64,000 nucleotides of DNA from Ornithinimicrobium sediminis. Its GTDB lineage: Bacteria; Actinomycetota; Actinomycetes; Actinomycetales; Dermatophilaceae. The stretch lies in contig NZ_JAJSDQ010000002.1 of assembly GCF_021272345.1 (NCBI RefSeq), positions 310,001-374,000 of the forward strand, in the 5' to 3' direction. The notes under the pieces are model-generated. The model did not search any database, had not been told where the DNA came from, and saw only the letters and a program-made list of their open reading frames with translations. The translations under genes and the position numbers were made by a program. Shown here piece after piece: positions 1 through 12,554 of this stretch. Within the stretch, counting starts at the first letter, position 1; each line of letters starts with the position of its first letter.

Positions 1-186
1 GAAGCGCTGCCGTGGTGCTGAGACGGGATCCTTGCGGGCGCTCCGCGCGGTAACTCTCCCTCGCGCCGAACCGCTCGCTGCGCTCGCTCCCGGACGCTCG
101 GTCGCTCTTTTTCGCGGCTCGGTGGTCGCTGCGCTCCCACCTCACGGGGATGCGTCACCGCGTCCCCGAAGGTTGGTGATTCCACA
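1..186. other. Left edge, non-coding, with short direct repeats
   Basis: No gene is supported here. The stretch is rich in CGCTC words and carries an 11-base direct repeat, TCGCTGCGCTC, at 75-85 and 126-136, with a run of five T at 108-112 between the copies. It ends at the GTG start of the winged-helix gene. Repeats beside a DNA-binding gene in a mobile region could be a control or origin site, but nothing in the sequence proves this. Confidence 0.3.
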
Positions 187-1284
187 GTGACCCCACCGCC
201 GGACAGGACGGAGACGCCACCCCCGGAGCAACCCTGGGACGTCCAACGGTTCCTTGAACAAGTTCACAGCGACGCCGCGCTCACGGCAGCCAAGCAGATC
301 GTGCTCATGGTCATGGCCGATGCTGCACGTGACGCCGGGCGCATCCAAGAGGGGGCCTTCGGTATCTCCCAGCGGTGTGCGTACTCGGAGTCGGTTGTGC
401 AGAAGGTGCTTGCGGGCCGTCCCATCACGGACGAAGCGGTTGGGACATACGTCACGAAGATCCGCGAGGGTGACCTCCTCACGATGACGTCGGCTGTCTA
501 CGACTTGCACTGCAGACCGTCCAATGGTCCGTTGAGTACGCATGCTGACGTCTCTTCTAGTAGTAGTAGTGGTAGTTATCCGTACTCGACGGACCTTCGC
601 GGTTGGTTGAGGCGGACGATGCCTGCGCACGATGGCTGGCGAGCGCGTCGCGCACGTGCTGCTTATCCGCTGGTCCTGCACCTGTCGTTGACCACCGGCC
701 CCTGGTCCACTGCGCGCCTGGAGTCCGTAGGCACCAGCAGTACTGCGTCTAAGAGGAGTCGCGCGTTCCTGGCCGAGTACGGACTCCTGGAGTCCAGTCG
801 GGGGTGGGTCGATGGGGTGCGATGGGAAAGGCTGCCGCAGGCTCTGAACCAAGTTGCGGTCGACCATGAGACCAACGGACTGGGACAACGACTGGCAGAC
901 GAGTACCGCCGGAAGGGTCACCGCGCACGGGCAGGGATGTTGAGGCGGGGGAAGATTGTGGAGCGCGAGAACCTGTGGGTGAAACTGTCCACCTACTCCG
1001 GGACCAAGGCGCTGGCCGACTTCGTGCTTGAACTCGAGGGAGACGGTGATGAGGTCCGCTCGCACACGGCTCCCGAGCGGCAGCGGATTGATGAGGTGCT
1101 CACCCAGATTCATCAGCACATGGAGACTGGGTCCACCTTGGGTGAAGCCATAGGCAAGGTGCAGCGGCACGGACTTCCTTTGGACTTCAGAGTCCTGTTG
1201 CAGCAGGCGCTAGGAGTCGAGGCGGAGATCCGTGGTCTGGATAGCGAGATCATGCTCGACGAGCAAGGAGAGGCAAACCAGTAG
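187..1284 (+). CDS. Double winged-helix DNA-binding protein (hypothetical)
   Basis: A 365-residue protein starting at GTG 187. Residues about 34-75 resemble the N-terminal winged helix of plasmid and phage replication or regulatory proteins (AKQIVLMVMADAA, then IS..CAYSESVVQKVL). Residues about 175-210 look like a second winged helix (PWSTARLESVGTSSTASK, then FLAEYGLLES). A Ser/Gly linker at residues 123-130 is encoded partly by an AGT triplet run at 559-576. The N-terminus is Pro-rich and the C-terminal third is charged and helical. It sits alone on the plus strand at the left of the accessory region. I infer a replication or control protein of the element; the exact role is unknown. No convincing ribosome binding site decides the start. 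Confidence 0.65.
   Translation: MTPPPDRTETPPPEQPWDVQRFLEQVHSDAALTAAKQIVLMVMADAARDAGRIQEGAFGISQRCAYSESVVQKVLAGRPITDEAVGTYVTKIREGDLLTMTSAVYDLHCRPSNGPLSTHADVSSSSSSGSYPYSTDLRGWLRRTMPAHDGWRARRARAAYPLVLHLSLTTGPWSTARLESVGTSSTASKRSRAFLAEYGLLESSRGWVDGVRWERLPQALNQVAVDHETNGLGQRLADEYRRKGHRARAGMLRRGKIVERENLWVKLSTYSGTKALADFVLELEGDGDEVRSHTAPERQRIDEVLTQIHQHMETGSTLGEAIGKVQRHGLPLDFRVLLQQALGVEAEIRGLDSEIMLDEQGEANQ
559..576 (+). repeat. AGT triplet run inside a coding region
   Basis: Six codons (four AGT, one GGT, one AGT) encode Ser/Gly within the linker of the double winged-helix protein, directly after two TCT serine codons. Such runs can slip in replication, so the linker length may vary between strains. Confidence 0.7.
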
Positions 1285-1777
1285 GAAGGTGTGCCGCGAG
1301 GAGACGCATAGCCTGACCCGGTCGCATGGTCATCTGTCGGCCCGCACTGCTCAGCCCCTTGCGCGACACCTGTCGGTTCGAGAGGACGTCACGGTGATCA
1401 CACCCCTCCGCACCCGAGCGGCAGCGTCGGGGCGACGCCGTGTGCACCCATGCCCCTTGGTCCCGAGCGCCCGCCCCGGTGGACGCCGTCAGGGAGAACC
1501 GGACGGCCAGGTCGTCATCGGTCCTCCGCGCGGTGCAGCCTCGTCGCCGTCCTGTCCGGCGGCGGCGAACGTGTCGATCCCCGAAGCATGAAGGTCGGCG
1601 TTCTCAACAGGGAGCAGGGCTGTCGATCGACGCTACGGCTTCGCCTCGTTCCTGGGTGGGAGTCCGGACCACCCCGCTACTCCTCGATCTCGCAGCACCG
1701 CGTCAAGTACAACCTCACCGTCGTGTCCGGGAGCGGGGGCCGCTCATCCCGGCAAGCGACCGGCAGGACTCAAGTGG
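1285..1777. other. About 490 bases without a recognisable gene
   Basis: Several short open frames exist on both strands, but their translations are Arg/Pro/Ser-rich, match no family I know and lack ribosome binding sites. The GGTTCGAG at about 1374 is not part of a tRNA-like fold. I see either intergenic DNA or a gene too decayed to name. Confidence 0.5.
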
Positions 1778-2257
1778 TCAACCGAGGTGACGCCGCGTCT
1801 GAGGTAGGGGCAGTTTCCTAATGGTCCAGCCGAGAGCGCTGAGGTCATAGAGACCATCGCAACGGGGCTCTAGCCGGTCCTGCGCGACTAGGCACTGGCT
1901 CGCCCACTCGTGAGGCTCTGCTGTCCACCCGAGGAGATCGGTCAGTGTGTCTCGATCAATCACGGGCGTATCCCAGCCCTTCCACTTCTCGGAGTAGTCC
2001 CATGCAAGCCACGTATGGGGGGACCAGCAGGGCAGACGGAAGGCCGGTAGGAGGTCGCACAGCGAGGCCAGCCTCCAGATGCCGTCGCTGAACTGCACCT
2101 CGTACAACGGTGCTACGCCCTTCGAACTCAGCACGTTGACTGCCATGTACGGTTCACCGTTTCGTTCCAGGTCGGCAGAGTCCCCACTCGACCGGGCTGT
2201 GTACCGGCCCAGTGGGTGAGAACAGCGGTCGCAGCCTGGCTGATGACGAGTGCTCAT
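1778..2257 (-). CDS. Hypothetical protein, Trp-rich, with N-terminal CxxC
   Basis: A 159-residue protein on the minus strand that I do not recognise. The N-terminus has one CDRC pair, the beginning of a possible zinc knuckle with no clear second half. The centre and C-terminus are rich in Trp and acidic residues, with no signal peptide or membrane segment. An internal Met at residue 38 (MAVNVLSS) is an alternative start. The gene stands alone, so no operon context helps. It is kept because the open frame is long and its composition is protein-like for this region. Confidence 0.45.
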   Translation of the reverse strand: MSTRHQPGCDRCSHPLGRYTARSSGDSADLERNGEPYMAVNVLSSKGVAPLYEVQFSDGIWRLASLCDLLPAFRLPCWSPHTWLAWDYSEKWKGWDTPVIDRDTLTDLLGWTAEPHEWASQCLVAQDRLEPRCDGLYDLSALGWTIRKLPLPQTRRHLG

Positions 2258-2270
2258 GAAGAGGCCCTAC

Positions 2271-2345
2271 GGGCGGCAACGCGTTGTGCGGAGTCGCTTG
2301 GCCGATGCCGAGGTCCCTGGCGATCTTCGCGCTGGGCAACCACTA
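2271..2345 (-). pseudogene. Possible remnant of a serine recombinase C-terminal HTH
   Basis: Read on the minus strand, this short stretch gives LPSAKIARDLGIGQATPHNAL, resembling the homeodomain-like helix-turn-helix at the end of resolvases and invertases (typical pattern: ...IAR.LG.....V.RAL). A stop codon (TAG, 2345-2343) lies two codons before it in frame, and no catalytic domain is visible nearby. It therefore looks like a broken fragment, and chance similarity cannot be excluded over about 21 residues. Confidence 0.3.
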
Positions 2346-2444
2346 GTCATGGTTCATGATGGCACGCCGGGCAGAGGTAATTACCGGCTGCTGCCCTTCG
2401 ACCAACTCGCGACCAACATCTCATGGGAGCCGTGACGTCGCCGC

Positions 2445-2450
2445 TAGAGT
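2445..2450 (+). promoter_or_regulatory. -10 box TAGAGT, leaderless style
   Basis: TAGAGT ends six bases before the ATG at 2457, and no ribosome binding site lies between. This matches the layout of many chromosomal genes in the window and suggests the lipoprotein mRNA starts at or just before its start codon. Confidence 0.45.
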
Positions 2451-2456
2451 GCCGGT

Positions 2457-3233
2457 ATGCGTTCACCTTGGGGCACACATGTAGGGCGGACAGCAGGGGG
2501 ACCATCGATGTTTGCTGTCGGGGTGGGTGCAGCACTGGTTCTGTTGAGTGCCTGTGCAGCCGACAGGAATGAACCGGATCCCGGAGCCCAGCCAGAGGCG
2601 TCGCGCGAGGACCCACCACCAGTCCCTCCCGCTGAAGCCGAGGAGACCGAGGCTGAGGAGGATGCCGAAGGTGAGAGGGAGATGCAGGGCACCTGGGAGG
2701 TCCGGATGGACGCTGACCGGACAGTGCGTCTGGAACTGGACGGCTCGTTCGATGTCAGGGAAGACAAGGCGGACGCTGACGCCGGTGAGACGGAAATCTT
2801 CATCGAGACCTTCGGGACAGTCAGGGTGACGAATGTCTCGGACGGACGTAACACGGAGGACATGGGCGCGAGCCTGGAGGTCTTTACCCCCATCGAGTTC
2901 TGCCCGGACTGGGTTAGGACCATAAGGGGTGTCTCCTTAGGTGACTACTGCTCGCGAGACCTAGTGTCCTTCAACATCCCCAATCTGGACGTCGGCGACT
3001 CGTCGGTCGTCTCGCTGGACCACAAGGCTAGGCTCAGGTCGGTCCTTGAGGAAGAGGCTCAGCCGGTCATTGAGGGCATGCTTGGCGACTCAGGGGTGAT
3101 CGTCTCCCCAGACCGCCTTTTCGTAAACGAGGACCTCTTGTCTTTGAACCCGACTTGCTCTGTCCCCTCTGGTGGAACCTGGATCACGTACTTCACTGAG
3201 AACGAGGCAGTCTCCGCCTGCTCAACTGGGTAG
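2457..3233 (+). CDS. Predicted lipoprotein of unknown function
   Basis: A 258-residue protein with a type II signal peptide: hydrophobic residues about 18-30, then lipobox LLSAC with the acylated Cys at residue 33. An acidic, Pro/Glu-rich linker (about 38-75) would hold the domain off the membrane. The rest (about 78-258) is mixed beta-like sequence with four scattered Cys, and I recognise no family. A signal-peptide Met at residue 18 is an alternative start, but ATG 2457 has a TAGAGT box six bases upstream. It is one of three lipoproteins in the accessory region; surface exclusion or adhesion are possible roles but unproven. Confidence 0.75.
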   Translation: MRSPWGTHVGRTAGGPSMFAVGVGAALVLLSACAADRNEPDPGAQPEASREDPPPVPPAEAEETEAEEDAEGEREMQGTWEVRMDADRTVRLELDGSFDVREDKADADAGETEIFIETFGTVRVTNVSDGRNTEDMGASLEVFTPIEFCPDWVRTIRGVSLGDYCSRDLVSFNIPNLDVGDSSVVSLDHKARLRSVLEEEAQPVIEGMLGDSGVIVSPDRLFVNEDLLSLNPTCSVPSGGTWITYFTENEAVSACSTG

Positions 3234-3377
3234 TGACCGCCGCGCTATCCCGGTTGCATTGGTCGATGCTGCAGGTGCAACCAGGGGATCTTTCTCCGCC
3301 ATGTTCCTGTATGCCCAGTTCCGGCTGCCTTCACGCACCCTGGGCGACGACGAGGCAGGCCCCGGGTAGCCGTTCCG

Positions 3378-4244
3378 CTACGGGGAGTCCTCGTCCTCAG
3401 GCACTTGTCTCGATTCCGGTGAGACCTCCTCGAGGTCGCCTCGACCAGGCGGTAGAGCGGCCTGGAGCGGGTAGGTGGGGAGTTCTGACGGCTCCGGCAC
3501 CTCGGTGGGCAGCGACATGACAGGCACCATGGCGGCCCAATCGTCCCAGGCGTCTTGTGCTTCAGGCACCCCGGTGAAGACGGCCCAAACCACACCGGCG
3601 ATGAGCATCAACCTCTTTAGCAGCGGGTTGCTGACAGACGAGGGATCCTTGTTGACATGAATGGCTACCTCCCCGGCAAGCCCGGCTACACCGTCCCTTA
3701 CACCCCCTGGGCCAACGATATCGACATGCTCAAGCGTCCAGAGAATGTCGGCGATGCGGCGGAGGAGCAGCGCCCGTAGGTCCTCGCCTAGGTCGCTCGC
3801 TTCCTGCACCAGTTGCTCCAGGTCGCGCAGACTTTGCGCCAAGTCGGCGGTCACCTCGGGATCGGGCAGAGGAGGGCCGTCGGGAGCAGCCACAGCGAGT
3901 GTGAACGAGAGTCCGTTAAGCGCTACCAGAGAACTGTTGTCCACCAGCGTTTCCGACGCGTTCTTCCAGAGCAAGCCAGGGGTGAACACAGGCGAGGCCC
4001 AAGCGCCCCAGTGCTGATCAAAAATGTCTCGAACCTCTTGAGAATTGGTGCTGTCCACCCTCCGCTCGAGATCGCGGAGCAGACTTGCCACGATCGCCAG
4101 ACCACGCATCACGGCTGCGGAATCGTCCTGCACACCGAGCACACTGGCCCACGCTGTTCGCACTGAGACCGATCCACTGGAGGCTTCACGTACTCTGGCG
4201 AGAACGGTGTGCAACCTCCCGGCTGGATTGTTGGGGTTCCCCAC
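3378..4244 (-). CDS. Hypothetical protein with one C-terminal membrane segment
   Basis: A 288-residue protein on the minus strand. The open frame runs 60 codons further upstream, but GTG 4244 (GNPNNPAGRLHTV) is preceded by GGAGGA with nine bases of spacing and the extra part has non-coding composition, so this start is preferred. The N-terminal two-thirds are mostly helical, with a Leu/Asp/Glu-rich stretch that could form a coiled coil (about 145-185). One membrane helix (RLMLIAGVVWAVFTGV) is followed by an acidic, Pro-rich tail. No enzyme motif is visible and I do not recognise the family. A single anchored helix near the end of a soluble helical body also occurs in toxins and abortive-infection effectors, but that is only an analogy. 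Confidence 0.6.
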   Translation of the reverse strand: MGNPNNPAGRLHTVLARVREASSGSVSVRTAWASVLGVQDDSAAVMRGLAIVASLLRDLERRVDSTNSQEVRDIFDQHWGAWASPVFTPGLLWKNASETLVDNSSLVALNGLSFTLAVAAPDGPPLPDPEVTADLAQSLRDLEQLVQEASDLGEDLRALLLRRIADILWTLEHVDIVGPGGVRDGVAGLAGEVAIHVNKDPSSVSNPLLKRLMLIAGVVWAVFTGVPEAQDAWDDWAAMVPVMSLPTEVPEPSELPTYPLQAALPPGRGDLEEVSPESRQVPEDEDSP

Positions 4245-4550
4245 GTCTTCCACTCCTCCGAGTCCGCCACTATGCCGGGTAACAGTGCACGTGGAGCACC
4301 CCCGGCCAGGTGCAACCCCCGTCGGGACCCCACCAGCGGGATCGACTGGGATCAGCCCGCGACGGCATCTCTCCAACCATGCATCTTGCCTTAGCCATAT
4401 TCGCCGAGACGAAGCCGAGATCACGGACGACCCGCCGCAGAGCCCGTGACGAGAGCATGGGCCCAGAAGATGCGGGACCAGTCAGGACCGAGTTGTCACA
4501 CCTTCGCTCGCCCCGCCCTGCACTTGGCTGCATCCCGCTGGGCTGTTCTC
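4245..4550. other. Intergenic, no supported gene
   Basis: This stretch lies between the start of the 288-residue protein and the stop of the first recombinase, both on the minus strand. It holds the GGAGGA ribosome binding site of the former near 4254-4259. I find no gene, tRNA or clear terminator in it. Confidence 0.5.
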
Positions 4551-5471
4551 TCAGCGGCGTGCCAGGGGGTCGTGAGTGGCGGTCAGGCGCGCCACGGCGT
4601 CCTGGGAGGGTCTGGCGTATCGCTGCAGGGTCGCCAGGGAGGTGTGGCGGGACTTGGCCATCAGCAGGGGTAGGGGGACTCCCTGCTCGGCGAGGTGGGT
4701 GATGGCTGAGTGGCGGAGTTGGTGCAGGGTCCTGCCTCGGCTCGCTTCCTTGAAGATGGCTTGGGCCTGGTCGTAGGACAGCCGGCCTCTGCCGGTGTCA
4801 GGGCAAGTGTCTGCGGCAGCCACGACGCGGGTGCCTCCGTAGGGGGTGTGCGTGCGAAAGAGGGGACCGTGGGCGCGCCCGTCGATGATCTTGGGCAGCA
4901 GCCGGGCGGTGCGGGTGGCGAAGTGGAGGGTATCGATGTCGCCGCCCTTGCGGATGGTGTGTGCCTGGCGCGCTGAGAGGTCGAGGTCCTCGACGTTGAG
5001 CAGGAGCACCTCCTTGGCTCGGGCGGCGCTCTCGTACAGCAACGTCCACAGTGCCCGGTCGCGGACGTGGGCGGTGCGCAGGCTCAGCAGCCGGTCCACC
5101 TCGTCGCGGGAGAGGGCCCGGTTGTGGTCCACGACGACGGTGCGCCGCTCCAGGCCGGAGGCCAGTCCTTCGGACGCCCATCCGTGGCGAGCGTTGAACG
5201 CCAGGAACGACCGCACGGTGGCCACCACGCGGTTCCAGGAGGCCGCTGAGGCCGCCGGGTAGGCCTTGGCCACCCCGAGGGCCACGTCGCCCACTGAGAG
5301 GCCGTGCAGGGAGGTTGATGGCAGGTGCGCTCCGACCCGCTTCAGGGTGAGCCGGTACACCCGGCGGGTGCCCGGGGCCAGGTCTCGACGGAGGAAGACC
5401 TCAGCGGCGGTGGCCCAGTCCGGGCTGTCGGCGGGGAAGGGCAAGGCAATGACGGGACGAGCAGCAGGCAC
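4551..5471 (-). CDS. Tyrosine recombinase (integrase), first copy
   Basis: A 306-residue site-specific recombinase that would cut and rejoin DNA through a 3'-phosphotyrosine. All six expected catalytic positions are visible: Arg 151 (ESAARAKEV), Lys 175 (TIRKGGDI), His 250 and Arg 253 (LHQLRHS), His 276 (KSRHTSL) and Tyr 285 (LQRYARP). The N-terminal core-binding, SAM-like domain spans about residues 15-110. The frame is open further upstream, but GTG 5471 has GGAG seven bases ahead and VVPAARPVIALP is a plausible N-terminus. It is only distantly similar to the second recombinase at 9289-10368. XerC-like length and the lack of an N-terminal arm domain fit a resolvase-like or transposon integrase as well as a phage-type one. 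Confidence 0.88.
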   Translation of the reverse strand: MPAARPVIALPFPADSPDWATAAEVFLRRDLAPGTRRVYRLTLKRVGAHLPSTSLHGLSVGDVALGVAKAYPAASAASWNRVVATVRSFLAFNARHGWASEGLASGLERRTVVVDHNRALSRDEVDRLLSLRTAHVRDRALWTLLYESAARAKEVLLLNVEDLDLSARQAHTIRKGGDIDTLHFATRTARLLPKIIDGRAHGPLFRTHTPYGGTRVVAAADTCPDTGRGRLSYDQAQAIFKEASRGRTLHQLRHSAITHLAEQGVPLPLLMAKSRHTSLATLQRYARPSQDAVARLTATHDPLARR

Positions 5472-5683
5472 GACATGGCTCCGTTGGCAGAGATGCAAGT
5501 AAATGTGCCTGTGTGACGTCGGGCGCCGTTCATCGGTTCCCGCACAGGCGCACCCAGATGGCCTGGGCTGACCCCAGTGAATGGGCTGTTTACTCGGGGT
5601 GCGTCCGCTGACCCACGTGCGCCCGGCCATCAGCCACTAGGGCGCCATCCGCATCCGAGTGTCGAGACCAGGTTTGGGACCGG

Positions 5684-6637
5684 TCAATCAGTGGCGTAGT
5701 AGTAGCGCTCCTGGTCTCCAAAGGACTCCTGGACGTACCAAGTCCCACCCTCGATCGCATCTGTCGCCACAATCATGCACACGTTGCCACTGGCAGAGGC
5801 ATCCTGGAACAGGTCGTCGATGTCGCCGACGTCCTCGGGTATCACGCCACAGTCCTCGGCGTACTCCCTGCCGTCGCTGCCGACGAAGGCAAAGTCCAGG
5901 GATAGCCAGGGAGAGTCGTACTCCTCACCGTCGGCCCGACCCGTGAAGGTGAGATCGACTTGGGTGCGCACCATAGAGTTGCCGGATCCCGCTGGGTCGT
6001 TGAACTGGTTCTCTGCCATCACCGCTGCCTCCCAGTCCCGAGTCGTAGGGCCAACGGTGACCTCCCAGTTCGGCAGGGTGCTCGGCTCACCAGGGGGGTA
6101 CGGATCGGCGCGGCTACCAGACTCGGTCGAGGTGCCAGCCCCAGACCCAGCATCCGTTTCCTCCTCGCCGTTCTCGGTCTCGACGTCGCCACAGCGCTCC
6201 GCGTAGAACTGCTCGATGACCTCCCGAGATGGCGTGCCGTCCATGTTGGGGTTCAGGGTCAGGGCATCTCTGGTCATGTCCAGGTACAGATCACCGTCAT
6301 CGTTGACGAGGTCACATCTGACGGCACGGTCGTCGTCGTCACCTTCCAACCACATCTGCAAGAGCACCGACTCGGCCAACGAGTCGATCGAATTGCCTTC
6401 GCTTGATGCTGCTGGAGTGGGCTCTGGCGAGGTGACCGTCACGGTCGCAGTGGCTGTCACGGTGACGGTTGCACGGTCTTCGTTGGCTGACGCCGGAGTG
6501 GGCCCGCTGGCCGTGTCAGCGTCGCTTCCGCCATCGCTGCACGCACTGACGAGGAGCACTGCCAGGAGTCCGCTGACGACAGCCCTACCAGATGGTGAAC
6601 GGGGGTGGCTGTCGAGCGTGACGGAGTCTTCACTCAT
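5684..6637 (-). CDS. Lipoprotein with W-x11-C repeat and DUF4352-like domain
   Basis: A 317-residue predicted lipoprotein. The signal peptide ends in lipobox LLVSAC (Cys 33). A Thr/Val run (ATVTVTATATVTVT, about 57-69) forms a linker. Residues about 87-149 hold one copy of a domain with Trp 96 and Cys 108 (W-x11-C), then Phe 144 and Cys 149 (F-x4-C), shared with the adjacent lipoprotein. After an acidic linker, residues about 188-317 look like an Ig-like DUF4352/MPT63-type domain (NWEVTV..., two Cys, C-terminal beta strands). It lies 18 bases downstream of the neighbouring lipoprotein and is probably co-transcribed. The ligand is unknown; a surface-exposed, cell-envelope role is inferred. Confidence 0.78.
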   Translation of the reverse strand: MSEDSVTLDSHPRSPSGRAVVSGLLAVLLVSACSDGGSDADTASGPTPASANEDRATVTVTATATVTVTSPEPTPAASSEGNSIDSLAESVLLQMWLEGDDDDRAVRCDLVNDDGDLYLDMTRDALTLNPNMDGTPSREVIEQFYAERCGDVETENGEEETDAGSGAGTSTESGSRADPYPPGEPSTLPNWEVTVGPTTRDWEAAVMAENQFNDPAGSGNSMVRTQVDLTFTGRADGEEYDSPWLSLDFAFVGSDGREYAEDCGVIPEDVGDIDDLFQDASASGNVCMIVATDAIEGGTWYVQESFGDQERYYYATD

Positions 6638-6655
6638 GCCGCGCCGCCTTACACA

Positions 6656-7375
6656 TCAGGAACCGCACTTGGACTCGAAGAAGGCACGCGACACTTCCCT
6701 ATCGAACAGCGGGTCGAGTTCCTCACCCGCGTCCAGGACGTAGTCCATCCCGAACAGATCGATGCTCTCGCACCAGTCCGACCGGTCTGCCGAGGACAAC
6801 TCGCTCCACGTCCGCTCCCATGCAGTCCACTCCAGCGTGTCTTCGAACTCCGAGGAGCCGCCCCCCGCATCGGTGCCCAACTCCTCGTCGCCAAACCAGC
6901 AGATGTCGTCCTCGGTCTCAGGCAGCGCATAGGGGTCGCAGAAGTCCTCGGAGGCGAAGAGTGCAGTGCAGGTGGTCCGCAGGAAGTCCGCAGCCAGTCC
7001 CGCGTCAGCGAGGCTGCCCTCCACGTCCGCCAAGAACTTGCCGACCTCGTCGTAACCCCGATCCTGTGCGTCCAGACACATGAACGTTTGCTCTTCCTCG
7101 CTGCTGTCGCTCCACACTCTTTCCATGGCCGCCTGCTGAAGGTCGTCAAGGTCAACAGGAGGCTCACTCGTGTCCGCTTCGGGCTCCGCCGTCTGGGTAA
7201 CGGTGGCGGTCGGCTCAGCGGTGACAGTGACCGTCACAGGCGCTGGGTCGGGAGTGGCCGTGGCCACAGGTGCCGCAACGCCTTGTGTTCCGGTCGTGCC
7301 CGACGTCTCCGAGTCCTGGGAGCACCCAGCCAAAAGGAAGGCGAGACAGACCACCATGGTCACGGTGTGTCGCAT
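6656..7375 (-). CDS. Lipoprotein with two W-x11-C / F-x4-C repeats
   Basis: A 239-residue predicted lipoprotein with lipobox LLAGC (Cys 18) and a Thr/Val-Pro linker (PVTVTVTAEPTATVTQ, about 46-61) like that of its neighbour. Two tandem copies of one domain follow. Copy 1 (about 79-136) has Trp 88, Cys 100, Phe 131, Cys 136; copy 2 (about 181-237) has Trp 190, Cys 202, Phe 232, Cys 237. The Trp-Cys and Phe-Cys spacings are identical in both, so each pair of Cys could form a disulphide outside the membrane. A Cys/acid-rich insert (about 138-180) separates the copies. I do not recognise the domain. It is the first gene of a two-gene unit, with GGGGA five bases before the ATG. Confidence 0.78.
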   Translation of the reverse strand: MRHTVTMVVCLAFLLAGCSQDSETSGTTGTQGVAAPVATATPDPAPVTVTVTAEPTATVTQTAEPEADTSEPPVDLDDLQQAAMERVWSDSSEEEQTFMCLDAQDRGYDEVGKFLADVEGSLADAGLAADFLRTTCTALFASEDFCDPYALPETEDDICWFGDEELGTDAGGGSSEFEDTLEWTAWERTWSELSSADRSDWCESIDLFGMDYVLDAGEELDPLFDREVSRAFFESKCGS

Positions 7376-7652
7376 TTAGTCCCCATCGTCCTGTTCATCG
7401 CTGGATGCCGTCTCTGTTCTGCAGTCGGGCCAAAGACTACAGCGCTGTTTCGGCCTAGGCCTTCTGTGGCGATGCACCAAGCGGTCCAGCGCTACCACTT
7501 AGTGCACCGCCACTTCAAGCGTCCTTGGTATGCCCCAGGATCCGCGACCCGCGCCGTGCGTGACTTATAGCGTCGTCCAAGGTATAGGTCCGAGCGAGGG
7601 CTACACCCACAACGCTGGGTGTGAAGGTGGGTGTGCCTCGTCCTTGTCCTCA
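7376..7652. other. Intergenic region with a small inverted repeat
   Basis: No gene is supported. ACACCCA (7603-7609) and TGGGTGT (7616-7622) form a seven-base-pair stem with a six-base loop, placed downstream of the Cys/His-rich gene as read on the minus strand. There is no T-tract, so it is at most a weak terminator. The promoter of the lipoprotein pair must also lie here, near 7376-7440. Confidence 0.4.
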
Positions 7653-8030
7653 TCAGGTGACGGTGATGTTGATGATGATCTCCGCCGTTCCAGCGATGCT
7701 CACGACTACTGACGCCGACGAGGAGCCGTGGCCGTCCCCTGCCCATGCTGCACACCTGCAATAGAGGGCCTTGCAGTGGCCGTCCGGGTTGCGCTCGGGC
7801 GAGCCGTGTAGTGACGCGCGGTGCCCGCAGGTCTTGCACACGGGCAGGGGAGTCCGGTTGTACACCGTGCAGGGGCAGCCATGGCGATGACACTTCCTGA
7901 GACCCTTGTAGGGATGCTCACTTGCGTAATGGCCGCATTCGCACAGATGGTGCAGTCGTCGGGTCGGTGGAGGCTGAGTTACTTCTACCTTGACCTGCCG
8001 CGAGTTGCCGTCGCCAGCGTGATCCTTCAT
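7653..8030 (-). CDS. Small protein with two tandem Cys/His zinc-type units
   Basis: A 125-residue protein. Two units repeat the pattern C-x(1-2)-C-G-H-x-A-S-x-H ... C-x4-C-x-C. Unit 1 uses Cys 30, 32, His 34, 39, Cys 47, 52, 54; unit 2 uses Cys 65, 68, His 70, 75, Cys 86, 91, 93. The ligands are ideal for binding one or two zinc ions per unit. Similar CGH...H...C.C motifs occur in small uncharacterised actinobacterial proteins. The C-terminal 20 residues are hydrophobic beta-like sequence (SVVVSIAGTAEIIIN). Its ATG overlaps the stop of the excisionase-like gene by four bases, so the two are translationally coupled and probably act together, for instance on DNA or as a partner of recombination. 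Function unknown. Confidence 0.7.
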   Translation of the reverse strand: MKDHAGDGNSRQVKVEVTQPPPTRRLHHLCECGHYASEHPYKGLRKCHRHGCPCTVYNRTPLPVCKTCGHRASLHGSPERNPDGHCKALYCRCAAWAGDGHGSSSASVVVSIAGTAEIIINITVT

Positions 8031-8278
8031 CGGTCGCTCCTTCCGCCAACGCGGCGACCGTCGCCCTCTGTCTTGAACTCGTCACGGGCCGGAACGCGGT
8101 GCTGCCCCACGTAACTGTCGAGGTCCTGTCGGCGCAGGCGAAGGCACCGTCCAACACGGACAGTTGCCAGACGCTCCCCTGCGATCTCGCGGCGCAGGGT
8201 GCGCTCGCTCAACGTGGTGTACTTCGCCGCCTGACGCAGGGTCATCAGCGTTGGCACGTGCTCTGGTTGATGGATCAT
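8027..8278 (-). CDS. Excisionase-like MerR/HTH_17 DNA-binding protein
   Basis: An 83-residue protein with the helix-turn-helix pattern of excisionases: TLRQAAKYTTLSERTLRREI, then a wing with VRVGRCLRLRRQDLDSYV, where the LRxRxxDLxxY end is characteristic. It would bind and bend DNA to direct recombinase-driven excision or act as a small regulator. An internal Met at residue 12 is a possible later start. It overlaps the Cys/His-rich gene by four bases and lies 129 bases downstream of the Rep gene, so replication, excision and the Zn-type protein form one minus-strand group. Confidence 0.8.
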   Translation of the reverse strand: MIHQPEHVPTLMTLRQAAKYTTLSERTLRREIAGERLATVRVGRCLRLRRQDLDSYVGQHRVPARDEFKTEGDGRRVGGRSDR

Positions 8279-8407
8279 CGTGGTCCTCGTGCTTTCCGGA
8301 CCCGTCCGGATGACAGGTCCTCCACCCTTTCGCCAGGAGTGGGGTCGTCTGAGACAGGGCCTGACCGTGCCAGGGTCAACGAGGTGCCCAGAGGCACGCC
8401 TCTCACC
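8279..8407. other. Inverted-repeat-rich gap between rep and xis
   Basis: This 129-base gap holds three potential stems. TCCGGA (8295-8300) pairs with TCCGGA (8305-8310). TGACC (8362-8366) pairs with GGTCA (8374-8378). GAGGTGCC (8381-8388) pairs with GGCACGCCTC (8393-8402), with one bulged base. The density of hairpins beside an HUH initiator makes it a candidate nicking or single-strand origin; a terminator for rep is the simpler alternative. Confidence 0.35.
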
Positions 8408-9121
8408 TCACCTGTTGGCAAGCCGGTATGACTGCCGCACGCGAGCGGTGGCTCCCGTCCTGCCGCCGAGGAGGGGACCGTCAACACCGTCCCGCCAGAA
8501 TGAACGCGAGGCCGACAGCAGCAGCCGGCCCCCGTTGTTGGCTAGGTATGCGGACCTCGTCGCCGGATCGAGTGACTCCTTCATCAGGTAGCCGCCTCCA
8601 CTGACCGTCTGCACCCTCATCGCGGAGACATGGCTCGCTCCCAGCCCTGCCCTGGTCGCGACCTCTTGGACTTCCGATCTGGGGAGCGGCCTGCCGTGCG
8701 TGAGCGCGTGGCAGTGCAGACGACCCGACCGGTGGCGCTCGATGGTGGCGCAGTGAGCGGTGCCATAGTGTCTTCGTAGGGTCCTGAAGACTCTGGTGAT
8801 GCATGGGCGCGCCTTATGAGCGGAGTCAGGCAGCAGGGTGAGCGTGACCATCTGCTCGGGCTCGGCCAGGATGATCGCAAGGCTGGTGTGGAAGACATGC
8901 GTGTGGACGCAGTGGTCGCAGGTCAGACGACGACAACGTTGGTCCTGGATGACCTCTCCGGTGCTGTGATCAAGCCAAGAAGGTCGATGCGGACACAGGC
9001 TCGGTCGTTCGCCGCATCGCCGGTGTCTGGATCCGTTTGGCAACATCAACGACTTGTCGAAAGTCCTACCTAGGTGATCAAGATGGAGAGAAGGACTAGT
9101 GGTTGCGTGTTCGGAGTTCAC
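8408..9121 (-). CDS. Minimal HUH-type replication initiator (Rep)
   Basis: A 237-residue protein with the signature of rolling-circle initiators. A Cys cluster (Cys 36, 43, 63, 68, 71; CRRLTCDHC) suggests a zinc-binding N-terminus. The two-His motif is GRLHCHALTHG (His 136 and 138), for metal binding. The nucleophile motif is GGGYLMKES (Tyr 178, Lys 181; Y-x2-K). SASRSFW follows, as in plasmid Rep proteins. It would nick the element at its origin and start strand-displacement copying. The open frame extends upstream, but GTG 9121 has GGGAG five bases ahead and the extra part looks non-coding. An ATG at 9046 is another option. It is shorter than most actinobacterial Rep proteins and has no helicase or primase domain. 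Confidence 0.72.
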   Translation of the reverse strand: MNSEHATTSPSLHLDHLGRTFDKSLMLPNGSRHRRCGERPSLCPHRPSWLDHSTGEVIQDQRCRRLTCDHCVHTHVFHTSLAIILAEPEQMVTLTLLPDSAHKARPCITRVFRTLRRHYGTAHCATIERHRSGRLHCHALTHGRPLPRSEVQEVATRAGLGASHVSAMRVQTVSGGGYLMKESLDPATRSAYLANNGGRLLLSASRSFWRDGVDGPLLGGRTGATARVRQSYRLANR

Positions 9122-9288
9122 GCTGGCTCCCGAGGGTCGGCACGCAGGGCCTTGTGGGGCCCTGAGCGGAGCGTGAGTGCCCCGTCCAGCCTTTAGTCGG
9201 TGCTTGCCGCAAAGGGACAGGGCCGGACGCACCCGGACCCCCGTGACCCCAGCCAGCCCCGCCCAGACCGAGTTGCCGCGCGACGGGC

Positions 9289-10368
9289 TCACTGGTGGGG
9301 GGAAGAGGCCCCCGCGCGATGAAGGGGCAGCACCGAGGCACTCGTCCCGGTCATAGCCGACAAGAAGGGTTGACCTCGCAAGACCTTGTCCCGGCGCTCC
9401 CGCTCGGCCTGCATGCCTAGGTACTTCTCCGTGGTGGCACTACTAGAGTGGTGCAGCATGGCGCTGACGTCTCGTAGAGCCCCGTCGTACCCCACGACCT
9501 GGCTGCGCATGTCGAAGTAGGCACGAGCAACCCCCCTGCGGATCGTATGCGTCCCTTCACCCCTCGTGGGCAAGCCCGCCTTCTTCAGTGCGCCTTGAAC
9601 GATGCGCTCGGTCTTGGTCACATGCCGGGTGGGTTCCCAGGATGACGGAGTGTGGCGACGTTCCTTGGTCCCGTCCTCCAGCGTGACCCAGGCATACCGG
9701 CTGGGGACACGCACGGGAAAGAGGTAGTCCGACTGCCTGAGCGGCCTGCCGATGGTGAGTGCGTACTCGTGCAACCAGCCCTCAAGTTCAGGCGACAGGT
9801 CGGCTGTGATCGGGAAGCGGTCGACCTCGTAGGTCTTAGTGATCTTCACGGTCAGCCAGCCGCCGTCCAGATCGACGTCCCCCACCGTGATCTGAGCCGC
9901 GCTGCCTGCCCGAAGGGCCGAGTTGATGATCAGAGTCAGGTACGCCCTGTCACGGGCATTGTCCGTCAGGGTGGGCAACTCGCTGAGGACGTAAGCGTCG
10001 GGGCGGAGCCGGGGACGCCTCGTGACCGGGAGCGGCCACACATCAGCCAACAGATCACTCTTGAGCCAACCCTGGCGGGTGCACCATGTGAAGAATATCG
10101 CCAGGCGTGTGCGGTAGTAGTTGTACGTCGTAGCGCCGATCGCTGGCCGGAGGCGTCTGTCCCTCGTCCGGTGCTGAGACCTCAGGCTGACGAACCACTC
10201 CTCTACACGTGCCGCTCGCAGGTGTCGGACTTGACACGGCCCGTACCAAGACGAGAAGCGACGCAGCACGTGGCCCTCGTTGCGGACCGTCGTAGCCGCG
10301 CACCGAGAGGACCGGTTGCGAAGGTACTGCTCGATCGCCGCTTCGAGCGAGATAGAAGTAACTCCCAT
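9289..10368 (-). CDS. Tyrosine recombinase (integrase), second copy
   Basis: A 359-residue integrase. An N-terminal SAM-like core-binding domain (about 5-105: EAAIEQYLRN...TTYNYYRTRLAIFFTWC) is followed by a catalytic domain with Arg 153 (INSALRAGS), Lys 178 (ITKTYEVD), His 274 and Arg 277 (THTIRRGV), His 307 (LHHSSSAT) and Tyr 316 (EKYLGM), the His-Tyr spacing being the usual nine. ATG 10368 has AAAGG nine bases upstream, so the 24 upstream codons are excluded. It lies at the right edge of the accessory region, directly before chromosomal-type genes, the usual place for the integrase of an integrative element. No tRNA gene is adjacent, so the attachment site is not identifiable here. Confidence 0.9.
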   Translation of the reverse strand: MGVTSISLEAAIEQYLRNRSSRCAATTVRNEGHVLRRFSSWYGPCQVRHLRAARVEEWFVSLRSQHRTRDRRLRPAIGATTYNYYRTRLAIFFTWCTRQGWLKSDLLADVWPLPVTRRPRLRPDAYVLSELPTLTDNARDRAYLTLIINSALRAGSAAQITVGDVDLDGGWLTVKITKTYEVDRFPITADLSPELEGWLHEYALTIGRPLRQSDYLFPVRVPSRYAWVTLEDGTKERRHTPSSWEPTRHVTKTERIVQGALKKAGLPTRGEGTHTIRRGVARAYFDMRSQVVGYDGALRDVSAMLHHSSSATTEKYLGMQAERERRDKVLRGQPFLSAMTGTSASVLPLHRAGASSPHQ

Positions 10369-10528
10369 CGCCAAAACCTTTCTGCCCGTGCATATGCGCG
10401 GGCTGTTCGTCCTGGCGGGAGATCTCAAAGTGTACTCCAAGCACTGTTGTTAGAACTTGCGAGTGGGAGTGACTGCGACACAACGGATCGGGCGGGGCAG
10501 TGCGAGTGCGGTACCGCCGAGGTGTGAG

Positions 10529-10661: not shown

Positions 10662-11072
10662 ATGAAGCGCATTCTCGGAGCACTCGCAGCACCCTTGATG
10701 GTCCTCGGGCTGGCGGCCGCACCCGCCGCGGCGGATGACCACGAGCCCGGCGCGAACCTGGCCGCCAACGAGGCGGCGTGCCTGGCAGCAGGCGGCACCT
10801 ACGACGACTCGGGTCCCGGCGGTGACCGGGTCCGGACCTGCACCGTCGGGACCGAGGGCTGGACGGACTACGGTGTGCCCGCGTCGCACCCGCAGCAGGA
10901 GTGGACGGTGGACGTCTACTACCCCGGCGAGCAGACCGTCTACCGTCTTGCGGCCGGCGAGGGCTTCTCCATGGAGACCACCGGTGGTGGAGACCCCTAC
11001 GTCGTGGCGTGCTACAACCACCAGGGCAAGCCTGTCGACCTCGACACCACCCACTGCGTGCCCAGCGCGTAG
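10662..11072 (+). CDS. Small secreted protein of unknown function
   Basis: A 136-residue protein with a clear Sec signal peptide: MKRIL, a hydrophobic Ala/Leu core, then an APAAADD cleavage region near residue 24. The mature part (about 110 residues) has four Cys, able to form two disulphides, and ends CVPSA. I do not recognise the family. The start is fixed by GAGGAGG nine bases ahead of ATG 10662. Codon use is like the chromosome to its right rather than the accessory region, so it is probably the first resident gene after the element. A strong hairpin follows the stop. Confidence 0.75.
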   Translation: MKRILGALAAPLMVLGLAAAPAAADDHEPGANLAANEAACLAAGGTYDDSGPGGDRVRTCTVGTEGWTDYGVPASHPQQEWTVDVYYPGEQTVYRLAAGEGFSMETTGGGDPYVVACYNHQGKPVDLDTTHCVPSA

Positions 11073-11196: not shown

Positions 11197-11241
11197 ATGC
11201 GGATCGGTCCCGGAACGAGAGCGGCGAGCACGTGGGGGTGA
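11197..11241 (+). CDS. Leader peptide frame overlapping murT
   Basis: A 14-residue frame (MRIGPGTRAASTWG) begins seven bases after a TAGCGT box. Its TGA (11239-11241) overlaps the GTG at 11238, which is in the murT frame, giving the GTGA junction typical of translational coupling. If real, ribosomes loading on the leaderless message would read this peptide and restart at murT. There is no homology evidence for such a short peptide. Confidence 0.4.
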   Translation: MRIGPGTRAASTWG

Positions 11242-12554
11242 TCGCCGGACTGCGCACCAGTGGAGCGATCGCCGCCGGCAAGGCCGCTCGCGTGGCGTCC
11301 CGGATGCGAGGTGGCGGCTCCGCGCTGCCCGGCCTGGTCGCCGAGCGCGTCGACCCGGCGATCCTGCAGCACACCCTGGGCTCCTTGCCGCGTGGCGTCG
11401 TCGTGGTGAGCGGCACCAACGGCAAGACCACCACCACGAAGATGGTCGTGGCGCTGCTGCGCGCGCACGGGCTGCGCGTCTTCACCAACCCGACCGGCAG
11501 CAACTTCACCCGCGGGGTGATCTCGGCGCTGCTGGGCGAGGTCGGCATCAGCGGCCGGGTGGACGCCGACGTGGCGGTCCTGGAGCTCGACGAGGCGCAT
11601 GCCCTCAAGTTCGCCGAGGTCGTGGCGCCCACCCACGCCTTGCTGCTCAACGTCGCCCGCGACCAGCTGGACCGGTTCGCCGAGATCGACCACACCGCCC
11701 GGCTGCTCACCACGCTCGCGGAGCAGACCACCCAGGCCGTGGTGCTCAACGCCGACGACGCCTTCGTCTCACGGATCGCGGGACAGCTGGCTCCTGGCGT
11801 CGGCGTCCAGTGGTTCGCCGTCGACCCCGCGGTCGCCGACCGCCTGCCCGAGATCCAGGAGGCCGACGTCCGCTTCGACGACCCTGCGGACGCGCCCACC
11901 CTGGGCGACCAGGACGGGCTGCTGCTGCCGCACGACGAGCGCTCCTTCACCATCCGCTTCCCGGGGGGCGTCGACGTCGGGCCGCTCACCCTACGGCAGC
12001 GGGGGCTGGCGGCGATGATCAACGCCACGGCGGCCACGACCATGGCGCGGGTGCTGCTCGGGCCAGACTGGGACGCCGCGACGGCCTCGTCGGCCCTCGA
12101 GGCGGTGCACCCGCCCTTCGGCCGGGGTGAGGTCATCGACGTCGACGGCGCCCCGCTCGAGCTGGTCCTGGTCAAGAACCCCGCCGGGTTCACGGTGGCG
12201 CTCGGCACGTACGGCAACGAGCCCGTGGCGACGATGATCGCCATCAACGACAACTACGCCGACGGTCGTGACGTGTCGTGGCTCTACGACGTGTCGTTCG
12301 AGTCCCTGCGGGACAGGGGCGTCTCCGTGACGTCCGGTGTGCGGGCCTGGGACATGGCGCTACGGCTGCGCTACGACGCGGTGGAGGTCGACCGGGTCGA
12401 GGCGGACCTGGACACCGCGCTGGATGCCTTCCTCGGCCTGCACCGGGGCGAGCCGACCCGCATCTTCTGCACGTACACGGCCATGATGCACCTGCGTCGG
12501 CGCCTGGCGACGCGCTACGACCTGGCCCGTTTCGGAGAGGACCCGGACGCATGA
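11238..12554 (+). CDS. murT: Lipid II isoglutaminyl synthase subunit MurT
   Basis: A Mur-ligase-fold protein of about 438 residues that, with GatD, amidates the D-Glu of lipid II to D-isoglutamine. The ATP-binding loop GTNGKTTTTK is at about 59-68, the NPTGSN region follows, and the DUF1727 C-terminal domain carries DDNYADGRDVSWLYD, where the family's catalytic-triad Asp is expected. Only one Cys is present (FCTYTAMM), so the Cys4 zinc ribbon described for firmicute MurT is absent. GTG 11238 is chosen because it overlaps the stop of a leader frame; GTG 11232 is equally in frame. Its stop overlaps gatD by four bases, as expected for a two-subunit enzyme. Confidence 0.95.
   Translation: MIAGLRTSGAIAAGKAARVASRMRGGGSALPGLVAERVDPAILQHTLGSLPRGVVVVSGTNGKTTTTKMVVALLRAHGLRVFTNPTGSNFTRGVISALLGEVGISGRVDADVAVLELDEAHALKFAEVVAPTHALLLNVARDQLDRFAEIDHTARLLTTLAEQTTQAVVLNADDAFVSRIAGQLAPGVGVQWFAVDPAVADRLPEIQEADVRFDDPADAPTLGDQDGLLLPHDERSFTIRFPGGVDVGPLTLRQRGLAAMINATAATTMARVLLGPDWDAATASSALEAVHPPFGRGEVIDVDGAPLELVLVKNPAGFTVALGTYGNEPVATMIAINDNYADGRDVSWLYDVSFESLRDRGVSVTSGVRAWDMALRLRYDAVEVDRVEADLDTALDAFLGLHRGEPTRIFCTYTAMMHLRRRLATRYDLARFGEDPDA

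Follow-up and report, generated by a model that had tools for sequence, protein, structure and literature searches.

The window analysed here is a 64,000-bp stretch of the Ornithinimicrobium sediminis genome (G000:C9:310001-374000), in which three adjacent genes on the minus strand encode a small replication initiator (Rep), an excisionase (Xis) and a Cys/His-rich, zinc-type protein. In our judgment, this trio is probably, though far from certainly, the replication and excision end of an integrative element that is not self-transmissible, has the 3' end of guaA as its integration site and carries restriction genes. Our best reading is that the element depends on a helper, uses a rolling-circle Rep and carries defence cargo, in a layout like that of Tra-less actinomycete integrative and conjugative elements (AICEs) and of the phage satellites called phage-inducible chromosomal minimalist islands (PICMIs). 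The integrase (Int) would act with Xis to excise the element as a circle. Rep, probably a single-tyrosine HUH enzyme, would nick one strand at a candidate CTTGAT site inside the start of rep and copy the circle by rolling circle. A helper would supply transfer, and the cargo would defend the host and perhaps exclude competitors.

Boundaries, sister elements and restriction cargo

The ends of the element are marked by a short direct repeat. The 13 bases that end guaA, CGAGTGGGAGTGA, appear again on the plus strand at 10460-10472, just outside int, as attR; the guaA copy lies outside the window (G000:C9:299836-299848; guaA ends at L003 9848). In this genome murT (11232-12554) is about 21 kb from guaA, and in relatives the distance from guaA to a following murT is at most 1.2 kb in 26 of the 29 loci other than the window's own, including all 25 from the same genus. 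This count covers the best 30 loci of 58 genomes, one being the window's own; the three loci without murT belong to other genera, and their sequence reaches only 1.5 kb past guaA. GuaA itself was matched in all 58 genomes, weakly only in G019 and G023. Because 13-bp repeats flank the insertion and guaA and murT adjoin in relatives, we take the element to be 20,637 bp long with both repeats included (G000:C9:299836-320472), of which 10,472 bp (1-10472) fall inside the window and 10,165 bp to its left. The int, xis and rep genes all lie between the att repeats, as in AICEs. The sequence itself shows the ends of the element, the unoccupied site in relatives, the gene content, the homologies of Rep, Xis and Int and the lack of an FtsK/TraB domain. 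G+C content per kb is 0.625-0.672 up to window position 11,000 and 0.668-0.771 in the remaining window, and no left border of the low-G+C stretch occurs within the window. In six relatives (L008, L012, L016, L017, L019 and L034), the gap between guaA and murT is 0.9-1.2 kb rather than near-touching, which is another variable stretch at the same site.

Eight Reps are known: those of the window, of a second contig of the same genome (G000:C11), of genomes G056, G233, G313, G743 and G1068, and of a viral contig. Int, xis and rep lie within 3.5 kb in six of the eight loci and on one 12-kb contig in a seventh, some Xis proteins being assigned by eye. The conserved unit is Int-Xis-Rep. The preliminary description of this DNA had instead suggested that a Rep-Xis-Zn unit might mark a reduced, mobilisable class of element. 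We reject that trio as the conserved unit on the description's own terms, as the zinc-type protein has no convincing relative in 117 genomes and was not found in the other seven Rep loci. Its proposal of an integrative element with an HUH-type Rep and Xis but no TraB fared better, in that the element is bounded by repeats and Int-Xis-Rep recurs; the trio covers only one end of it, and at 20.6 kb, with its restriction genes outside the window, the element is not the compact, small one first described.

Four elements, of 7.5 to 20.6 kb, could be bounded, at guaA, at tRNA-Lys and twice at tRNA-Gly, two of them in one genome. The three sisters are flanked by 43- to 47-bp tRNA repeats and were found in the same genome and in two related bacteria. 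The G000:C11 element (9,021 bp; 43-bp tRNA-Lys repeat) carries int, a helix-turn-helix (HTH) gene, xis (HTH_17 below the cutoff), rep, and genes for an HTH protein, an MmeI-type IIG enzyme and a DUF4357 protein with a GIY-YIG match below the cutoff. The G056 element (17,295 bp; 43-bp tRNA-Gly repeat) carries int, xis and rep as well as genes for HsdM, HsdS, Mrr, DUF932, HsdR, a DUF4145-like protein (below the cutoff) and a tetratricopeptide repeat (TPR) protein. In the G313 element (7,479 bp; 47-bp tRNA-Gly repeat), int, xis and rep are joined by the gene for a type ISP enzyme. In the window element, a GmrSD_N protein (L003 10398-12500), HsdM (L003 12719-14323), HsdS (L003 14526-15482), HsdR (L003 15485-18649) and a weakly PD-(D/E)XK-like protein (L003 18884-19993; HSDR_N/PDDEXK_4 below cutoffs) are all encoded left of the window. 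Restriction genes are therefore present in all four bounded elements, as GmrSD plus HsdMSR, MmeI-type IIG plus DUF4357, HsdMSR plus Mrr, and type ISP. The remaining four Rep loci, two or three of them incomplete, showed none.

The association with restriction genes was also compared with that of other integrases. An N6_Mtase methylase (PF02384) was encoded within 20 kb of four of six Rep integrases and 2 of 28 others (Fisher p 0.004), and within 10 kb of three of six and none of 28 (p 0.003). The comparison drew on all PF00589 matches in G000, G056, G233, G313 and G743 (45 rows; G1068 left out), minus 10 presumed XerC/XerD proteins (by presumption the two best-scoring per genome) and the second recombinase of the window. 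Because the idea arose from the same elements, this comparison is a check and not an independent test.

A single-protein search with Rep matched 2 of 146 relatives, and profile searches matched 3 of 186 family, 3 of 396 order, 2 of 394 class and 2 of 396 phylum genomes. Each count includes the window's genome, the samples overlap, and the counts are lower bounds because the profile searches scored only 6 or 14 candidates per genome. GTDB contigs yielded one locus, from Intrasporangiaceae bacterium URHB0013 and with the same content as the G233 contig, and IMG/VR yielded one contig. Phage and plasmid records gave no match to Rep, and none was confirmed when viral sequences were scanned with A1, the window Rep and three further Reps.

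Rep, its candidate nick site and its neighbours

The rep gene (8408-9121, minus strand, GTG start) encodes 237 residues and contains the GRLHCHALTHG and GYLMK motifs quoted in the preliminary description. The frame stays open upstream as far as a GTG at 9292, where it shares four bases (GTGA) with the stop of int, and thus Rep may be either 237 or 294 residues long. Window Rep matched PF23343 (REP_ORF2-G2P) at 7.1e-5 and 23.5 bits, below the cutoff of 27.8, and PHROG 3419 (rolling-circle initiation) weakly at 0.032; it matched neither NCBIfam models nor the RepAM/Prim-Pol families of Pfam. Three of six Reps scanned matched PF23343 at an E value of 0.1 or below. In an alignment of all eight, C-x4-C-x2-C and HxH are present in every Rep and Y-x-x-K in seven, the Rep of the viral contig being the one without a clear YxxK. 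An AlphaFold model (three sequences) predicts the order strand-helix-strand-strand(HxH)-helix-strand-helix(Tyr), which fits that of HUH enzymes, and at an E value of 0.001 or below 19 viral structure models matched it, including two microvirus replication initiators and a genomovirus Rep. Thus, the predicted core is compatible with an HUH fold and no proof of one, and the HUH assignment first made from motifs gains from the weak family matches, the seven homologues and the shared HxH. Rep resembles the microvirus HUH initiators and PF23343 in HxH, in the tyrosine motif and in those structural matches, and differs from them in the C-x4-C-x2-C before the HUH core, in its small size and in its integrated host context.

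Where Rep might act is suggested by a short motif. CTTGAT occurs on the sense strand of rep less than 250 bases from its start in four of the eight loci: the window (9077-9082, minus strand, in the 5' part of rep, with a second copy at 8969-8974), C11, G056 and G233. The background is 0.17 per kb and strand. Synonymous-codon resampling per locus gave P values of about 2e-4 for at least four of the five closer loci, a test that left out three loci without the motif, and of 5e-4 for at least four of all eight. Both values are somewhat optimistic, because the test began with CTTGATA/TCTTGAT and was then relaxed to CTTGAT. In alignment, with the stretches cut by hand around the motif, the window, G056 and G233 have their copies at one and the same position; the aligned site in C11 reads CTTGCT, and its own CTTGAT lies 18 bases upstream. 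Replicons of the pC194 type are nicked at CTTGATA. The available part of the review PMC5714925 does not print that sequence. We regard CTTGAT near the start of rep as a candidate nick site. A GC-rich, terminator-like hairpin lies between xis and rep in G056 and G233 (L040 8860-8892; L041 about 1750-1800) and none lies there in the window element; a repeat search around rep found nothing common to the four loci searched, that hairpin being shared by G056 and G233 only.

Beside rep on the same strand lie, in order, xis and the gene for the zinc-type protein, as first described. Xis (8027-8278, 83 residues) is an excisionase-family HTH protein that matched HTH_17 of Pfam (5.3e-8) and the TIGR01764 excisionase family (1.2e-9), both above cutoff, as well as PHROG excisionases. 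The zinc-type protein (7653-8030, minus strand, 125 residues) has two repeats by eye, and its ATG overlaps the xis stop by four bases (8027-8030, ATGA). It matched nothing in Pfam or PHROGs at an E value of 1 or below, had one chance-level NCBIfam match (0.32) and had no match in phage records. Across the 117 genomes it found only itself and one weak place (E value of 5.5e-4, with an internal stop and opposite a longer frame), and tblastn against the loci of the other seven Reps gave at best an E value of 0.03, outside the element. Near Rep in G1068, a gene (L054 3209-3883) encodes a different protein, in which two Cys/His knuckles can be made out by eye, and zinc-type neighbours of Rep may recur without homology.

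Upstream, rep adjoins int (9289-10440, minus strand), which encodes a 383-residue tyrosine recombinase. Its residues R177, H298, R301, H331 and Y340 are invariant in seven aligned integrases. A search of 137 relatives gave weak matches in 15 genomes besides its own (best E value about 1e-6, at most 42% identity), and thus the window integrase has no close copy among them. Two other integrases (L040 7071-8435 and L048 8219-9619) contain an internal stretch matching Lsr2-like nucleoid protein families (PHROG 1223).

How the element might move

AICEs of the pSAM2 type share with the element the Rep, Xis and Int genes, a tyrosine integrase, integration at the 3' end of a gene and a rolling-circle-type Rep. 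The element differs from them in having no FtsK/TraB domain, a small Rep with PF23343 only below the cutoff, and restriction cargo in all four bounded elements. FtsK_SpoIIIE domains were present in all six Rep-bearing genomes and in none of the window element or its sisters, so the lack of a TraB-like translocase noted at the outset extends to the whole element. We reject AICE membership because no Tra protein with an FtsK/SpoIIIE domain was found inside it. AICE Rep types and tra-less Frankia elements are covered in the part of the AICE survey available to us (PMC3218068). Between packaging by a phage, as in a satellite life cycle, and mobilisation by a conjugative element, we consider the former somewhat more likely.

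That the elements are phage satellites, a specific form of the best explanation, is plausible without being probable. A helper phage would induce Xis/Int and Rep, the circle or a concatemer would be packaged, and the restriction cargo would defend the host. The arrangement of an integrase, an AlpA-like regulator and a replication gene in a small island is present, with an HUH Rep in place of a primase, and resembles the int, alpA and prim of PICMIs as described in the accessible text of PMC10803314. Like those minimalist satellites of Vibrionaceae, the element combines an integrase, an HTH_17/AlpA-type protein and a replication protein with few other backbone genes at a fixed site; unlike them, it is actinobacterial, has an HUH Rep and restriction cargo, and has no known helper. 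The sizes of the elements, 7.5-20.6 kb, also suit a satellite. Scans of proteins from the four bounded elements, in which not all small frames were included, recognised no terminase, capsid, phage head or packaging gene, however, and no cos/pac site is known for these elements.

A distant Rep does occur with capsid genes. The viral contig IMGVR_UViG_2918376121_000002 (L059 1-12191; 12,191 bp) has at one end, by eye, int and an HTH gene that align with those of other loci, and it continues with HNH, terminase large subunit, portal, head and scaffold genes, Rep and a major head protein (PHROG), such that Rep sits between the scaffold and major capsid genes. Among ten scanned proteins of the contig there was no tail family. 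Compared with 50,697 phage records, its terminase ranked best with Streptomyces phages of the phiC31/phiBT1 type at about 33-35% identity, and all 1309 matching records were below 60% identity. The contig, which may be incomplete, appears close to the gene set of the capsid-forming satellite described in the accessible part of PMC10690885. It thereby resembles capsid-forming phage-inducible chromosomal islands (cf-PICIs) and the Streptomyces satellites MulchRoom and MiniFlayer in joining int, HTH, HNH, terminase, portal, scaffold and capsid genes, whereas the window element and its three bounded sisters have no recognised packaging gene among scanned proteins. MulchRoom and MiniFlayer show no obvious replicase, as far as the same source was available (PMC10690885), and identity between the Rep of the contig and the other seven is only 25-31%. 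We speculate, and hold it unlikely as a whole, that there is an actinobacterial satellite lineage with an integrase, an HTH excisionase, a small zinc-knuckle HUH Rep and exchangeable restriction cargo, in part with a nick site inside rep, of which a distant branch captured a capsid set. Such a lineage would link PICMI-like and cf-PICI-like satellites.

A second specific form of the explanation, which we find doubtful, is that of an integrative mobilisable element (IME), in which Rep would double as the relaxase and a conjugative element would supply the pore. In many streptococcal IMEs the putative relaxase is a rolling-circle initiator, and ATE-1, an actinobacterial IME of Trueperella pyogenes, sits at the 3' end of guaA, according to the accessible part of PMC5704250, which also covers rolling-circle-replication relaxases and restriction-modification in IMEs. 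Moreover, ICEBs1 mobilises plasmids with HUH Reps of the pC194 type (PMC5714925, seen in part). The element shares with IMEs an integrase, the guaA site and, in our reading, dependence on a helper. ATE-1 has a MobV relaxase, however, and many streptococcal Rep-type IMEs carry their own TcpA coupling protein (PMC5704250, same part), whereas the window element has only a Rep, and the element proteins that were scanned included none recognisable as a canonical relaxase or coupling protein.

Two further explanations are improbable. The elements might be what is left of AICEs whose TraB was lost and which now persist as fixed defence islands, but four bounded elements, at sites of three kinds, share the Tra-less plan, the att repeats and recombinase residues are kept, and window Rep matched no NCBIfam model and is smaller than RepSA. 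A composite island, of at least two independent insertions between guaA and murT with a Hsd/GmrSD block unrelated to the Rep module, would account for the second tyrosine recombinase (4551-5630) and the mixed gene orientations, but no further copy of the 13-bp repeat occurs inside the element with up to two mismatches allowed, and at three further places a bounded element holds both Rep and restriction genes.

Several observations nonetheless weigh against our best reading. We infer the element's excision, circularisation, replication and transfer from sequence, and the second recombinase leaves room for a composite. The N-terminal part of HsdS is missing in one frame, and the apparent missing part reads in another, with an apparent frame change near the start of the gene (L003 14311-15482; G000:C9:304311-305482); the type I system may thus be inactive, or the assembly may be faulty. 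The Rep model is weak (mean predicted local distance difference test score 58, about 64-74 for residues 71-170 and 52-57 around the tyrosine), matched no Protein Data Bank (PDB) structure at an E value of 0.001 or below, and had ferredoxin-like folds in most of the top ranks, with the REP-associated tyrosine transposase 4er8 at rank 19; a PDB search by sequence gave two chance-level matches only. CTTGAT is absent near the rep start of G313, G743, G1068 and the viral contig, and capsid genes stand beside one of eight Reps only. Finally, int-xis-rep of G233 lies beside tRNA-Gly and is cut by a contig end; G743 has int-xis-rep with a Schlafen AlbA_2 protein, and neither a restriction methylase on the 85-kb contig nor element ends were found there; and on the 6.2-kb contig of G1068 neither Int nor a restriction gene was recognised.

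If the best explanation is right, restriction systems in these actinobacteria would move on elements that can be as short as 7.5 kb and that have three backbone genes, with an HUH Rep outside the set of Pfam profiles that the accessible part of the AICE survey (PMC3218068) lists. The four bounded elements are a testable set for the movement of Tra-less, capsid-less islands and for helper phages carrying restriction genes between species. Among the literature matches listed, which comprised titles and abstract openings with few subscription papers, none described an actinobacterial element that combines an HUH Rep, Xis and Int with restriction cargo. Related work, seen in part, includes PMC11389934 (hitchers), PMC10023795 (actinobacterial prophages) and PMC8190616.

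Other genes within the elements

Among the remaining cargo, the TPR protein of the G056 element (949 residues; L055 863-4031) follows a small gene and has a weak NB-ARC match and no PADLOC match. In the window, Pfam and PHROG scans left two cargo proteins unassigned, of 365 residues (187-1284, plus strand) and 348 residues (3378-4424, minus strand). Between them lies a gene for a putative lipoprotein of 258 residues (2457-3233, plus strand), its signal read by eye. The second recombinase (4551-5630, minus strand, 359 residues) matched PF00589 at 5.4e-18 and SAM_1 at 6.5e-8. It is followed, still inside the element, by two putative lipoproteins on the minus strand with Val-Thr-rich stretches (5684-7375), one of 317 residues (5684-6637) with no Pfam family and one of 239 residues (6656-7375) with none above the cutoff, the signals again recognised by eye.
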